A stretch of DNA of 64,000 nucleotides from Candidatus Stammera capleta (GTDB taxonomy: Bacteria > Pseudomonadota > Gammaproteobacteria > Enterobacterales > Enterobacteriaceae), in contig CP043973.1 of the NCBI GenBank assembly GCA_015134315.1, forward strand, positions 89,611 through 153,610. Reading direction: 5' to 3'. Within the stretch, counting starts at the first letter, position 1, and every line of letters starts with the position of its first letter. Shown here one piece after another: positions 4,141-40,233 of the stretch. The translations under genes were made by a program, and so were the position numbers. Under the pieces are notes generated by a model. That model was not told where the DNA came from. It did no database searches and saw nothing but the letters and a program-made list of their open reading frames with translations.

Positions 4141-5514
4141 TTATAAATTAATAAATAACATTTCTCTAACTTCTATATAGAGTTCTAATGGTAGCATATT
4201 TAATATATTTTCACAAAAACAATTTGTTATCATAGATATAGCATCATTTTTATTTATTCCTCTTTGTAATAAAAAAAATATTTGTGATTTTTTTATATAA
4301 CAAGAACTTGCTTCATGTTCTATTATTGAATTATTATTTTTTAATTTTATTATAGGAAAAGTATGGTAACTACATGTATTTGATAATAATAGTGAATCGC
4401 ATTTAGTAAAATTTTTTGATTTATTAGAATTTTTATTAATTATTATTAAATTTCTATTAGTATTACTACTATAATTATTTAATATATTTTTAGAAATTAT
4501 TAATGACTTAGTTTTTTTTCCTATATGTATAATTTTATTTCCTGTATCAGATTGTTGTTTATTTTTTGTAATAGATATTGAATAATTATTGCTAATACTT
4601 TTATCACCTATTAAAATAGAACTAGGATATTTTCAATTTATTAATGATCCTTTTTCTAATTGTATTCATAATATTTCGCTTTTATAACCTAAGCATAAAG
4701 CTCTTTTTGTAACAAAATTTAACACGCCTTTATTATTTTTTTTATCAACATATCAGTTTTGTATTGTAATATATTTTATAAATGATTTTTTTTTTAATAT
4801 AATTTCTACTACTGCAGAATGTAATTGATTATTTTTTTTTATTGAAGCTGTACATCCTTCTGTATAATTTAAATATGTGTTTTTTTCTAAAATTATTAAA
4901 GTTCTTTCAAATTGACCTAGATTTGATTTGTTTATTCAAAAATATGATGATAATTCTATAGGACATTTTGTATTTTTTGGTATATATATAAAAGTGCCAT
5001 CTGAGAAAACACATGTGTTTAATATAGAAAAAAAATTATCTTTTATAGATACTGATTTAAACATATATTTTTTTATTAATAAAGGATATTTTTTAATTGC
5101 TTTATTGAAAGAACAAAATATTATTCCCAGTTTTAATAGTTTTTTTTCATAAGTAGTATTTATTGATTGGCTATTTAATATAGTATCAACTCCAATATTT
5201 TTTTTAAATATTTTTAAATTTTTTAATATATATTTTTCTTTTTTTGTATTAATATCATTATATGAATAATATTTATATTTTTGATAATTAATTTTTTTAT
5301 ATTTTCCATTAAATCATTTAGGTTCTTTAGTTTTTTTTCATATTTTATAGGCTTTTAATCTTATTTTAAGAATTCAATTAGGTTCTTTTCTTTTATAAGA
5401 TATTTTTTTAATTATTTGTTTATTAATTCCTTTTTTAAAATCTTTATATGTAATATTTTTATTATATGATTTATTTTTTGTATTTATTTTATTTTTACGT
5501 TTTTTGCTAAACAT
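4141..5514 (-). CDS. sufB: SufB Fe-S scaffold subunit
   Basis: Scaffold on which the Fe-S cluster is built. Hidden by many in-frame TGA codons; read as Trp the frame gives 457 residues (E. coli 495). Blocks in order: KEPNWILKIRLKAYKIW near 45-60 (family PDWMLEFRLKAYRYW), the CPIELSSYFWINK region, ASIKKNNQLHSA, NWYVDKKNNKGVLNFVTKR, SDTGNKIIHIGKKTKS, TKCDSLLL with the Cys matching E. coli Cys405, and EHEAS...FLLQRGI near the C-terminus. First gene of the suf operon; no sufA-like gene is visible upstream, where ldhA sits. Confidence 0.95.
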
Positions 5515-5531
5515 TTTTATTAAAATTTATT

Positions 5532-6530
5532 TTAATTTGTAATTATGTCATCACATTCTTTATTTAAAGAAATTTTTTTAATATTTTTAAGAGTAGTTTT
5601 AGATATATTTTTTAAAGATTCTACAGTTAAAAAAGCTTGATGTCCTGTTATTAATACATTATTGTATGAAATTAATAAATTAAAATTATCATCTTTAATA
5701 ATATTATTTGAATTATTTTTAAAAAATATTTTTTTTTCGTTTTCATAAACATCCATTGCTACTCCTTTAATTTTTTTATTTTTAATTGCTTTTATTAATG
5801 ATTTTGAATCAATTAATTTACCTCTACTAGTATTTATTATTAATACATTTTTTTTCATTTTTTTAATATTATTATAATTTATCATATGATGATTATTTTT
5901 ATTATAAGGACAATGTAAAGTAATAATATCTGAATATTTATATATTTTGTTTAAAGATGTGTATTTAGCTCCATATTTTTTAATTATAGAATATTTAATT
6001 ATATCAAATACTAATATTTTCATTTTAAATCCTTTTAATAATTTTATTAATTCTTGTCCTATTTTTCCAGTTCCTATAATTCCTATAGTTTTTTTATACA
6101 TATTAAATCCTATTAAATTATTTAAATCAAAATTTTTATTTTTAGAATTTTGATATGCTATGTGTATTTTTCTATTTAAATTTAATATTAAACTTAATGT
6201 ATATTCTGCTATGGATCTAGGTGAATAAGATTTTACATGTATTACTTTAATATTATTTTTATTAGTTAAATTTATATCAACATTATTATAACCTGCACAT
6301 CTTAATGCTATTATTTTGATATTATAATTTTTTAATATATTAATTATTTTTTTATCTTTTGCATTATCATTTACAAAAATACATATATAATTATATCCTT
6401 TAGATAATTTAACAGTTTTTTTATTTAGTTGTTTTTTTGTATATTTTATTTTAAAATTAAAATGTTTATTAATTTTATTAAAATATTTTATTTCATATTT
6501 TTGAGAACTATAAAATAGTATTTTATTCAT
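5532..6530 (-). CDS. ldhA: D-lactate dehydrogenase (fermentative)
   Basis: NADH-dependent reduction of pyruvate to D-lactate, regenerating NAD+ for glycolysis. It is 332 residues, near the E. coli LdhA length (329), and follows that sequence closely: CIFVNDNAKD near 50, ALRCAGYNNVD near 75, GTGKIG near 155, LHCPY near 207, NTSRGKLID near 235, VAMDVYENE near 260 and TGHQAFLT near 298. Those are the LdhA versions of the D-2-hydroxyacid dehydrogenase motifs, with the catalytic Arg (SRG), Glu and His. It lies just upstream of sufB on the same strand and could be co-transcribed. With pyk, gapA and eno in this window it supports lactate fermentation. Confidence 0.95.
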   Translation of the reverse strand: MNKILFYSSQKYEIKYFNKINKHFNFKIKYTKKQLNKKTVKLSKGYNYICIFVNDNAKDKKIINILKNYNIKIIALRCAGYNNVDINLTNKNNIKVIHVKSYSPRSIAEYTLSLILNLNRKIHIAYQNSKNKNFDLNNLIGFNMYKKTIGIIGTGKIGQELIKLLKGFKMKILVFDIIKYSIIKKYGAKYTSLNKIYKYSDIITLHCPYNKNNHHMINYNNIKKMKKNVLIINTSRGKLIDSKSLIKAIKNKKIKGVAMDVYENEKKIFFKNNSNNIIKDDNFNLLISYNNVLITGHQAFLTVESLKNISKTTLKNIKKISLNKECDDIITN

Positions 6531-36387: not shown

Positions 36388-36873
36388 ATGAAAAGAATAA
36401 TAATAGGAGTGGATCCAGGAACTTTTTGTACTGGATATAGTGTTTTAGAAATTAATAATTTTAATAAATTAAATAATAAAATATTATATATTTCTAGTGG
36501 TTGTATAAAAAGTAATTCTAAAATTTTTTCTATAAGATTAAATAAAATTTATAATTCTATATTAGATATATTTTTATTATTTAAACCTTTTGAATTAGCA
36601 ATTGAAAAAACTTTTTTAAAAAATAATTTAAATTCTAGTTTTAAATTAAATCAAATTAATTCAGTTATATATTTAGCTGCTGTTAAAAATTTTATTCCTA
36701 TTTATGAATATAATATTAATAAGATAAAAAGTTGTGTTTTTAAAACAACTAATATAAATAAAAAATATATTAATATATTCTATAAAAAATTTTTTAATAT
36801 TAATTATGATTTAGATTATAATATAACCGATTCTATAGCAGTTGCTATGTGTCATATATATTTAAATTTTTAA
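36388..36873 (+). CDS. ruvC: Holliday junction endonuclease RuvC
   Basis: Cuts Holliday junctions after RuvAB branch migration. 161 residues (E. coli 173). The acidic catalytic residues are visible: Asp in GVDPGTFCTGY near 8, Glu in AIEKTF near 70, and the final pair in the ITDSIAVAMCH block near 150. No TGA. Retention with recA suggests recombination is still used. Confidence 0.92.
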   Translation: MKRIIIGVDPGTFCTGYSVLEINNFNKLNNKILYISSGCIKSNSKIFSIRLNKIYNSILDIFLLFKPFELAIEKTFLKNNLNSSFKLNQINSVIYLAAVKNFIPIYEYNINKIKSCVFKTTNINKKYINIFYKKFFNINYDLDYNITDSIAVAMCHIYLNF

Positions 36874-36961: not shown

Positions 36962-37174
36962 ATGTCTACAAGAGTAAAAGGTAATGTTAAATGGTTTAAT
37001 GAGTCCAAAGGTTTTGGTTTTATTACTCCAGTTAATGGTGATAAAGATGTTTTTGTTCATTTTTCAGCTATTCAAAGTAGTGGTTTTAAGACTTTAACTG
37101 AAGGTCAATCTGTTGAATTTGAAATTACTAATGGTGCTAAAGGTCCTTCAGCTACAAATGTTGTTCCTTTATAA
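36962..37174 (+). CDS. cspE: Cold-shock RNA chaperone, CspE/CspC type
   Basis: 70-residue RNA-binding OB-fold protein. RNP1 (KGFGFI) and RNP2 (DVFVHF) are intact, and the sequence is nearly the same as E. coli CspE, including [16 protein letters not shown]. Its codons are richer in G and C than its neighbours, as expected for a very highly expressed gene, and it uses TGG for its Trp. An AAGG sits about 10 bp upstream of the ATG at 36962; a TTG codon just upstream in frame is less likely to be the start. Last gene before the palindromic region. Confidence 0.96.
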
Positions 37175-37242: not shown

Positions 37243-37311
37243 GTGAATTATTTAAATATAATAAATAACTTAAATTTTTTAAATTTAATTATATATATTT
37301 AAATAATTCAC
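37243..37311. repeat. 18-bp inverted repeat downstream of csp
   Basis: Arms GTGAATTATTTAAATATA (37243-37260) and TATATTTAAATAATTCAC (37294-37311) are perfect complements, separated by 33 nt that themselves fold partly. It lies about 70 bp after the csp stop. It could be the csp terminator or an accessory site of the nearby telomere-like palindrome. Confidence 0.8.
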
Positions 37312-37514: not shown

Positions 37515-37580
37515 TATTATAATGTAACATAATATATAAATATATATTTATATATTTATATATTATGTTACATTATAATA
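37515..37580. other. Telomere-resolution-site-like palindrome (candidate telRL)
   Basis: Two 32-bp arms (37515-37546 and 37549-37580) are exact reverse complements around a 2-nt centre TT. The arms contain conspicuous G/C positions (AATGTAACAT and ATGTTACATT) and so are not just low-complexity AT. It ends 24 bp before the start codon of a protelomerase gene. Protelomerase targets in N15 and phiKO2 are palindromes of about 50 bp next to the enzyme gene, so this is the natural substrate candidate. Base composition of the strands switches here. Cleavage has not been shown. Confidence 0.85.
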
Positions 37581-37604: not shown

Positions 37605-39140
37605 ATGAATAAAAATATAATTAAACTAATAATAAAAATTAAAAAAAATATAAAATATATAGAAAAAAATAATATCAAACAAACATATAAAACCAACTTT
37701 TATAAAAAAATTTCACAATTATATAAAAAATATCTTAAATCACAAAATATATCAATATTTACTTATAGTAAATATATTACGTTAATAAGAAATCAATTTA
37801 TAAATATAAAACATCATAATTTAAATAAAAATTTAAATATATTAATTAAAAAATTTAAATATTATAAAAATGAATTAAATAAATTAATAAACAAACCTAT
37901 TAATAAAATATTTAAAAAAATTAAAAAAATAAATAATAAATTATCTAAAATTGATATATTAATAAATTTTTTAAATCAAATAAAATTAAAAAATAATAAT
38001 ATAGATAAAATTAATAATATTATTAATAAAATTCCTGAATGAAAAAATGAAATAAATTTTTTGATAAAACACAAATGATATAAAGCAAATAAATTTATAA
38101 TTAACAAAATACAACAGGGAAATAAATTATTAAAATATATTAAAAAATTAAAAATTAATCACGAAATTTTATTTCACTTAAAAATTGAAAAAAAAATATT
38201 AATATTAATTAAAAAAAAATCTATACAATCATTAAAAATAAAAAAAAATAATACTATAAAGATAAATTATAAACAATATATTAACAAAATATTTAATATA
38301 TTTAATAATACATATAAATTAAAATCATGAAACGATATATGTAGTATATGTTTTTCGTTATCAGCAGTATCAGGTAGAAGAATGATTGAAATTATATATA
38401 GAGGTACATTTAAAATAATTGATAAAAATAAAGTATATTTTAAAGGTCAAGCTAAAAATAGCAAAATAAAAACATATAAAATATATATTTTATTAAATAC
38501 TATTGAATTTATAAAAAATATAAAAAAATTAAGATCATGTAAAATAATTAAAAATATTTTAATTAAAATAAAAAATAAAAAAAACACATTAATATCAAAA
38601 AATGCTCAAATAAGTAATTATATATCACCCTATCTAAATAAATGAGTTAAAAATTTCTTTAATGATAAAACAAGAACATTTAAAGATAGTCGATCTATAT
38701 ATGCTCGTATAGTATTTAAAAAATGATTTAATAAAGATAAAAAATGAATTAATAAAGATGAAGATATATTTTTTAGTAAAATACTATGTCATAAACATAT
38801 AAATAGTCAAATGTATTATAAACAATTTAAATTATATAATTTTTCTGATAAATGAAAACCTAAAAAAAATATAATTAATACAATAAATATACTTAAATTA
38901 TTAGATAATAAATTAAATAAAATAATAAAAAGAAAAACATCATATAGAATACATAAAATTACTAAAAATATTTTAAAAAAAAATCCTAATACAAAAATTA
39001 CAAGTTATTTATTAAGAAAGTATGGTTTTAATACAAAATTAATACAAAGATATATAAAATATATATCAAAATATATATCAAAATATATATCAAAAAATAT
39101 AAAATATAAAAAATTAAATAATGAAATTATTATTAAATAA
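37605..39140 (+). CDS. tel: Protelomerase (hairpin telomere resolvase, TelN/TelK family)
   Basis: Cuts a palindromic DNA site and rejoins strands into covalently closed hairpins, producing linear DNA. 511 residues when seven TGA codons are read as Trp. Strong match to TelK of phage phiKO2 from end to end: QQGNKLLKYIKKLKINHEIL, AVSGRRMIEI near 254, FKGQAK near 279, NKWVKNFFNDK near 345, KDSRSIYARI near 360, KDEDIFFSKIL near 384, and MYYKQFKLYNFSDKWKP near 403. By this alignment the TelK active-site residues R275, K300, K380, R383, H416 and Y425 are R259, K284, K360, R363, H396 and nucleophile Y405. The acidic C-terminal tail of phage enzymes (about 630 residues) is absent. Sequence and codon use match the symbiont, so acquisition is old. 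Confidence 0.95.
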
Positions 39141-39225: not shown

Positions 39226-40233
39226 TTAATTATAATAATAAATATAACTAGCTAAATCTAATACTTTATCAGAATATCCAGTTTCATTATCATATCATGA
39301 TATTACTTTAATAAATTTATTATTTAATAACATAGTTGCTTTAGAATCAAATATAGAAGTTTTTTTTTCTCCATTAAAGTCAGTAGAAACAACATCTTCG
39401 TTAGTAAAACCTAAAATACCTCTTAAATAACTTTTACTAGCTTCCTTTATAGAAGAACATAATTGATCATATGTTGTAGAATACTTTAATTTAGCAGTTA
39501 AATCTACTACAGATACATTAGAAGCAGGAACTCTAAAAGCCATTCCAGTAATTTTGCCATTTAATTCAGGTATTATTAATCCTAATGCATTAGCCGCGCC
39601 AGTAGAAGATGGTATTATGTTTTGAAATACACTTCTTCCTCCTCTTCAATCTTTTAAGGACGGAGAATCAACTACTTTTTGAGTGGAAGTAGCAGCATGT
39701 ATTGTTGTCATAAAAGCTTCTTTAATTTTAAAATTATCATTTATAACTTTTACAATAGGAGCTAAACAATTAGTAGTACAAGAAGCATTAGATACAATAT
39801 TTTGACCATCATAACTATGATGATTAACACCCATAACAAACATAGGAGTATTATCTTTAGATGGACCTGTCATAATTACATATTTAGCACCAGCTAATAT
39901 ATGATTATAAGATAATTCTTTAGTTAAAAACATTCCAGTTGATTCTATAACAACATCAACATCATATTTATTCCACGGAATATCTTTTGGGTCTCTACAT
40001 GAAGTTACAAAAATCTCATTATCATTAATTAATAATTTATTTTGATCTTTTATAACATCTATTTTACTATTAAATTTTCCATGAACAGAATCGAATTTAA
40101 GCATATAAGCCATATAATCAACGCTTATTAAATCATTTATTAACACGATTTTAATATTTTTACGATTTTGAGCATTACGAAAAACCAATCTTCCTATTCT
40201 ACCAAAACCATTAATGCCTATTTTAATAGTCAT
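39226..40233 (-). CDS. gapA: Glyceraldehyde-3-phosphate dehydrogenase
   Basis: NAD-dependent oxidation of G3P in glycolysis. 335 residues (E. coli 331). N-terminus [13 protein letters not shown], catalytic Cys in [12 protein letters not shown] near 150, [11 protein letters not shown], then after a TGA Trp [31 protein letters not shown], and [12 protein letters not shown] (second TGA Trp). Relatively balanced codon use suggests high expression; TGG occurs once (DIPWNKYD) beside the TGA codons. Confidence 0.97.

Follow-up and report, generated by a model that had tools for sequence, protein, structure and literature searches.

Genome reduction is thought to strip symbionts to essentials. Why, then, should the chromosome of Candidatus Stammera capleta, a beetle gut symbiont whose genome is among the smallest known in bacteria, carry a gene that looks like the protelomerase of a linear phage-plasmid, and does this gene mean that the chromosome is itself linear? 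The original prediction for this locus had proposed that a phage enzyme was domesticated to maintain a linear chromosome. The stretch of DNA analysed here (the window) spans 64,000 nucleotides, from position 89611 to 153610 of a contig that is 258,283 bases long; the genome totals 263,895 bases, assembled in two contigs. Coordinates are those of the window unless described as contig positions.

The locus encodes a protelomerase of the TelK/TelN family

The gene, referred to here as telN (37605..39140, + strand), forms an open reading frame of 511 codons under translation table 4, and splits into fragments under table 11. The reading of UGA as Trp in Stammera is already on record (PMC8629427), and is also required by adjacent genes, e.g. 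aspS and gapA. Within telN, all seven Trp codons are TGA, and Trp381 of the product corresponds to Trp in 11/11 aligned phage and plasmid protelomerases.

Domain, structural database, catalytic-residue and fold evidence were used to identify the product. Profile searches recovered the TelK_muzzle (PF20849, 7.6e-16) and TelK_stirrup (PF20818, 8.2e-11) domains, both over the Pfam cut-off, and TelK (2v6e) was the sole significant sequence match in the PDB (phmmer, E=9e-88, residues 42-502). Residues R259, K284, K360, R363, H396 and Y405 align with R275, K300, K380, R383, H416 and Y425 of the N15 and phiKO2 enzymes; this catalytic set (R-K-K-R-H-Y) is unchanged across 12 sequences, and all six residues are present in each Stammera copy wherever the position is readable. 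A structural model generated using AlphaFold without templates, from an input alignment that contained other protelomerases (pLDDT 84.7), had TelK as its best fold match (Foldseek TM 0.83; VIA Z 34.9 over 493 residues), followed by TelA (Z 21.5), ResT (Z 15.6) and XerA/XerH (Z 9.4), with Xer/Cre enzymes at 9.4 and below. This model superseded a poor initial fold made from Stammera sequences alone (pLDDT 58.9), after four other protelomerases had been added to the alignment.

An identity as a Xer, Cre or integrase-type recombinase was ruled out, with TelK coming first both by sequence and by fold; the corresponding Pfam family (PF00589, Xer/integrase) had no match in any of the 12 Stammera genomes. 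It is thus near certain that the 511-residue product is a TelK/TelN-family protelomerase, its cleavage and rejoining activity being inferred. The original prediction, which had claimed a phage-type protelomerase almost colinear with TelK/TelN with all six active-site positions aligned, and which had proposed a table-4 profile search and a structural comparison with TelK as checks, is borne out in each of these respects. A search for a closer tyrosine recombinase of another kind, whose existence would have refuted it, came up empty, and the nucleophile Tyr405 is present.

A long palindrome upstream of telN resembles phage telomere-resolution sites

The palindrome that the original prediction had placed beside the gene is real. 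It has 33-bp arms (37515..37580), resembles the phage telRL site, and is mismatched only at its exact centre (37547/37548); we take it to be the assembled junction of two presumed telomeres. At 66 bp, it is the longest palindrome in the 258-kb chromosome, where the runner-up has an arm of 18 bp. It ends ~25 bp upstream of the telN start codon, which lies 57 bp from the palindrome centre. Its 50-bp core (TGTAACATA...TATGTTACA, 37523..37572) is conserved at congener chromosome ends and was found again in eight congeners (G001, G003, G004, G006, G007, G008, G010 and G011), across which substitutions keep the symmetry of the site (e.g. TGTCACA...TGTGACA in G007). The T/T mismatch at the centre had been considered as proof of two distinct hairpins; this reading was dropped, because the bases at a hairpin tip are unpaired and because a k=55 assembly cannot decide the matter.

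The arrangement as a whole recalls that of TelN of N15, TelK of phiKO2 and Tel of PY54. Like the Stammera protein, these enzymes have colinear muzzle, catalytic and stirrup domains and the same six catalytic residues, and in all of these systems a palindrome with a half-site of 25-28 bp immediately precedes the gene, with the orientation also shared. The Stammera half-sites are identical, in register, to those of PY54 and Pantoea at 12-16 of 25 positions, a putative likeness to phage telRL that we consider to be only moderate support, since the sites are AT-rich and many non-independent comparisons were made. The Stammera system differs from those of the phages in several respects. The N15-like enzymes carry ~115-130 further residues, chiefly at the C terminus, which are absent from the Stammera enzyme; the distance from the palindrome centre to the start codon is 140-194 bp in the phages, as compared with 57 bp; and in Stammera the palindrome is almost pure A+T and TGA codes for Trp. 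We infer that the palindrome is the telomere-resolution site, in the absence of biochemistry demonstrating resolution.

Between csp and the palindrome there is also a perfect 18-bp inverted repeat, GTGAATTATTTAAATATA (37243-37260 / 37294-37311, with a 33-nt spacer), which is single-copy in the chromosome and is also found in G010. This is perhaps a terminator or a structured subtelomeric element.

telN occupies a conserved chromosomal position across the genus

The genes around telN are aspS, ruvC, csp, gapA, a gene for RNase H and an exonuclease-domain gene, with no phage genes amongst them. On one side of the palindrome, csp (36962..37174, +), which encodes a cold-shock protein and is conserved in the genus, is the gene nearest to the presumed telomere on the left (csp) side, and is preceded by ruvC (36388..36873, +), a conserved subterminal neighbour. 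On the other side, gapA (39226..40233, -) is the first gene past telN at the right, gapA-side presumed chromosome end. In phages N15, phiKO2 and PY54, by contrast, the neighbours of the protelomerase gene are parA/sopA-like (sopAB), antirepressor or repA genes, and this N15-like phage-plasmid neighbourhood is absent from the Stammera locus.

A telN match was identified in 9 of the 11 Stammera congeners, and wherever the locus is present telN is flanked by csp and gapA. In G009 only the 3' end of telN is retained, at both contig ends, where it is truncated by the assembly, and in G002 there is an assembly gap where telN is expected. A phylogenetic analysis placed the Stammera telN proteins in one clade (support 100/100), apart from the phage enzymes, and the telN tree broadly matches that of the flanking housekeeping genes, indicating that the gene has been inherited vertically within Stammera. 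In close pairs of genomes, dN/dS was 0.20-0.28 for telN and 0.12-0.19 for gapA, and telN is, by this measure of substitution, under purifying selection. The telN frame is broken at poly-A runs of 18-19 nt in G004 (L028 ~1046-1063) and G005 (L026 ~242-260), which could reflect assembly error, transcriptional slippage or decay.

Could telN instead mark a recent N15-like phage-plasmid, integrated or present as an assembly contaminant, that is without a chromosomal function? The company kept by the family elsewhere might suggest as much: outside Stammera it is rare in the order, the other genomes with matches measure 2.3-5.4 Mb, and the close homologues come from phage or plasmid records, or else from genomes of at least 2.3 Mb. 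The Stammera gene, however, is AT-rich with all of its Trp codons TGA, has solely housekeeping neighbours, shows purifying selection, and sits at one syntenic place across about ten species as a single deep clade. We regard a recent acquisition of this kind as refuted by the synteny and the clade, and give it next to no credence. Comparison across the genus supports the original proposal that a phage enzyme has been domesticated on the symbiont chromosome.

Assemblies of several relatives stop or turn back at the palindrome

In the source genome, the contig traverses the palindrome and closes as a circle with a 55-bp end overlap, and G007 also shows the csp-palindrome-telN junction. A k=55 graph, however, cannot separate left-right joins from a mixture of left-left and right-right joins across a 66-bp palindrome. 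In most relatives contigs stop at the palindrome: those of G004, G005, G006, G007, G010 and G011 begin in or just before telN, and the last sequence in the G006 and G011 contigs is a traversed palindrome core. The first 142 bp of the G008 contig form a perfect palindrome, with the site at its centre. Since 142 is k+1 for k=141 (the inverted overlap between the ends of G009 is likewise 141 nt), unitigs of this type probably stop at a self-complementary edge, which, we infer, needs turned-back reads.

G001 and G003 each have two sites, ~100 bp apart. What separates them is telN-side sequence in reverse complement (30/37 nt) and then exactly 71 nt of gapA-side sequence, also reverse-complemented, the two overlapping by 1-2 nt. 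This has the appearance of two hairpin turn-arounds glued together. In G004 there is a different palindrome at each end, each of them symmetric, the far arm at the gapA end being distinguished by a single base.

The side on which telN is found varies across the genus. It lies on the gapA side in the clade comprising G000, G006, G007, G010 and G011, and on the csp side in G001, G003, G004 and G008. Identical stretches of telN are found inverted at both ends in G005 (exactly 55 nt) and G009 (141 nt); in G005, the gapA-side copy runs to the 3' end of the gene and the csp-side copy is decayed beyond the shared part. The switching of sides is readily explained by telomere exchange, with terminal inverted repeats as the intermediate.

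Several records also contain irregularities. The 271,175-base record of G010 (CP024013.1; L066 7687-10301, L017) appears to have its csp-side palindrome end at about 262.7 kb, followed by a tail of ~8.5 kb (262,686-271,175) that is like the small circular plasmid of G011 and has an internal direct repeat; this tail is probably a misjoin, and the published length of G010 may be overstated. At the end of the G008 record (CP043985.1; L024 ~5150-6000), telN is joined within its 5' part to ~0.8 kb of DNA that is GC-richer and looks foreign, and the G006 record (CP043980.1; L020 1-39) starts with sequence resembling an Illumina adapter; both of these assembly faults are located at the presumed telomere. 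The small plasmids of G002 and G009 (L047, L048) carry tandem copies of a GC-richer unit at both ends, built around GTTTATGCGTTGTTTTGCTGGT and a sequence close to its reverse complement, and the other small contigs examined start without a unit of this type.

The presumed chromosome ends coincide with the replication terminus

The cumulative GC skew of the contig reaches its maximum at contig position 127,133, 24 bp from the palindrome centre at 127,157. The minimum lies at 243,394, beside a block of genes that, from their sequences, we take to be mnmG and the atp operon. The mnmG/atp region is the usual origin of replication in gammaproteobacteria. The presumed chromosome ends thus coincide with the replication terminus, and the origin is internal, with arms of 142 and 116 kb leading from it to the palindrome.

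The XerCD, FtsK and SbcD families went undetected in all 12 Stammera genomes. The loss of XerCD was considered as evidence for linearity and rejected: because XerCD is likewise missing from 10/10 other reduced genomes, its absence does not discriminate between topologies.

A linear chromosome with hairpin telomeres is the best explanation of the data

We consider it very probable that the Stammera chromosome is linear, with hairpin telomeres made by the domesticated phage protelomerase. We put it no higher for want of raw reads and biochemical data, and because the genome's own assembly reads through the site as a circle. Since that assembly closes through the palindrome, the case for linearity rests mainly on comparison with relatives. 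To this extent the original claim of a maintained linear chromosome is supported by the genus, but not by the very assembly for which it was made.

Under this explanation, an ancestor of Stammera would have taken the protelomerase gene from an N15-like linear phage-plasmid, and the gene would have become fixed on the main chromosome near the replication terminus. In the source species, one hairpin end would then lie beside csp and the other beside telN-gapA. Replication would start mid-chromosome, at the mnmG/atp-type origin (contig position 243,394), and reach both hairpins, with copying around them yielding palindromic telomere-telomere junctions. A protelomerase dimer would bind each ~50-bp palindrome, Tyr405 would attack both strands about its centre, and each strand would be folded back and religated, so that hairpin-ended monomers could separate. 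The cleavage geometry and refolding are drawn from work on TelK and TelA (PMC3558466); the covalent closure of the ends, the cleavage chemistry and a need for the enzyme in chromosome segregation are inferred by analogy. As for its history, the chromosome is likely to have become linear once, in the Stammera ancestor, via an N15-like phage telomere system fixed at the terminus, and to have remained so as the genus diversified, with the enzyme retained amid gene loss while repeated telomere exchange gave rise to terminal inverted repeats and shifted the enzyme gene between ends. The Stammera partnership has been called Paleocene-aged (PMC12905250).

The main rival is a circular chromosome that keeps the protelomerase and palindrome at the terminus for another role, for example replacing XerCD-dif in dimer resolution, or acting as a rarely cutting DNA-binding organiser of the terminus. 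The contigs of the source genome and G007 do read through the site, which is at the skew switch, the expected place of dif; the undetected XerCD and FtsK leave room for a replacement, and the inverted repeats at contig ends could also flank a palindrome in a circle. Nevertheless, closure of the source contig is not decisive given a k=55 graph and a 66-bp palindrome, hairpins are what the known enzymes of the TelK family make of such sites and the catalytic residues are all in place here, in several species the contigs terminate at the site or fold back there with 71-nt arms, and the ends of G004 carry different palindromes, each of which is symmetric. A circle is therefore improbable, though not excluded. 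A separate question is why, on a linear chromosome, telN has been kept. Once the chromosome had been linearised, loss of the enzyme may have been lethal, so that enzyme and site were retained neutrally. That telN survives in a ~260-kb genome after the loss of most genes fits such a ratchet, and a benefit is not a necessary assumption, since TelN-linearised E. coli is reported to be physiologically normal (PMC12624138); present data, however, cannot separate it from an adaptive origin. We lean towards the ratchet, without great conviction. It concerns why the system persists, whereas hairpin telomeres made by a domesticated enzyme concern how the chromosome is organised, and the two are compatible, so that support for one is not taken from the other.

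Discussion

Hairpin-ended chromosomes are found in Borrelia and Agrobacterium. There, as we propose for Stammera, cellular hairpin telomeres depend on a resolvase resembling tyrosine recombinases (ResT and TelA, which match the Stammera model with Z 15.6 and 21.5, respectively), but these belong to different subfamilies, whereas the Stammera enzyme belongs to the TelK subfamily of phages; TelA is without muzzle and stirrup (PMC3558466). Linear chromosomes have also been described in reduced, AT-rich, insect-associated bacteria, namely Ca. Phytoplasma mali, whose ends are proven hairpins and carry terminal inverted repeats (PMC2459194) and which is unrelated to Stammera, and Ca. Riesia pediculicola, for which a linear chromosome is reported (PMC6990135) and which represents another symbiont lineage. 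The original assertion that no such case had been described thus has to be narrowed: linear chromosomes are known in such genomes, but we found no description of a TelK-type enzyme as the natural telomere enzyme of a main chromosome in a symbiont of ~0.26 Mb. The Stammera literature that we searched makes no mention of linearity or telomeres, although the primary genome papers fell outside that search and an earlier description is not excluded. What is new is the combination of a TelK-type enzyme and a telRL-like site on the ~0.26-Mb main chromosome of a symbiont. If the chromosome is indeed linear, it would be, to our knowledge, the smallest linear main chromosome in bacteria and the first in nature to depend on a TelK-type enzyme.

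The closest parallel is engineered. The E. coli chromosome has been linearised with TelN and telRL, according to Cui et al. 2007 as cited in PMC12624138, and in the linearised strain dif/XerCD is dispensable (PMC12624138). The type of enzyme and site is the same, and the whole chromosome is linear; the E. coli case, however, is engineered in a large genome, while that of Stammera is natural, genus-wide and at ~0.26 Mb. Stammera would therefore be the natural counterpart of TelN-linearised E. coli.

These findings raise the question of how a linear chromosome is segregated without detectable XerCD, FtsK or SbcD, how telomere genes move between chromosome ends, and whether the topology and ends of published 'complete' Stammera chromosomes need revision. 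The enzyme presumably acts on an almost pure A+T site, which would be useful for making closed linear DNA. Above all, a phage enzyme has been kept across the genus at ~0.26 Mb in spite of genome reduction, which suggests that telomeres of the TelK type can serve a main chromosome over long times.
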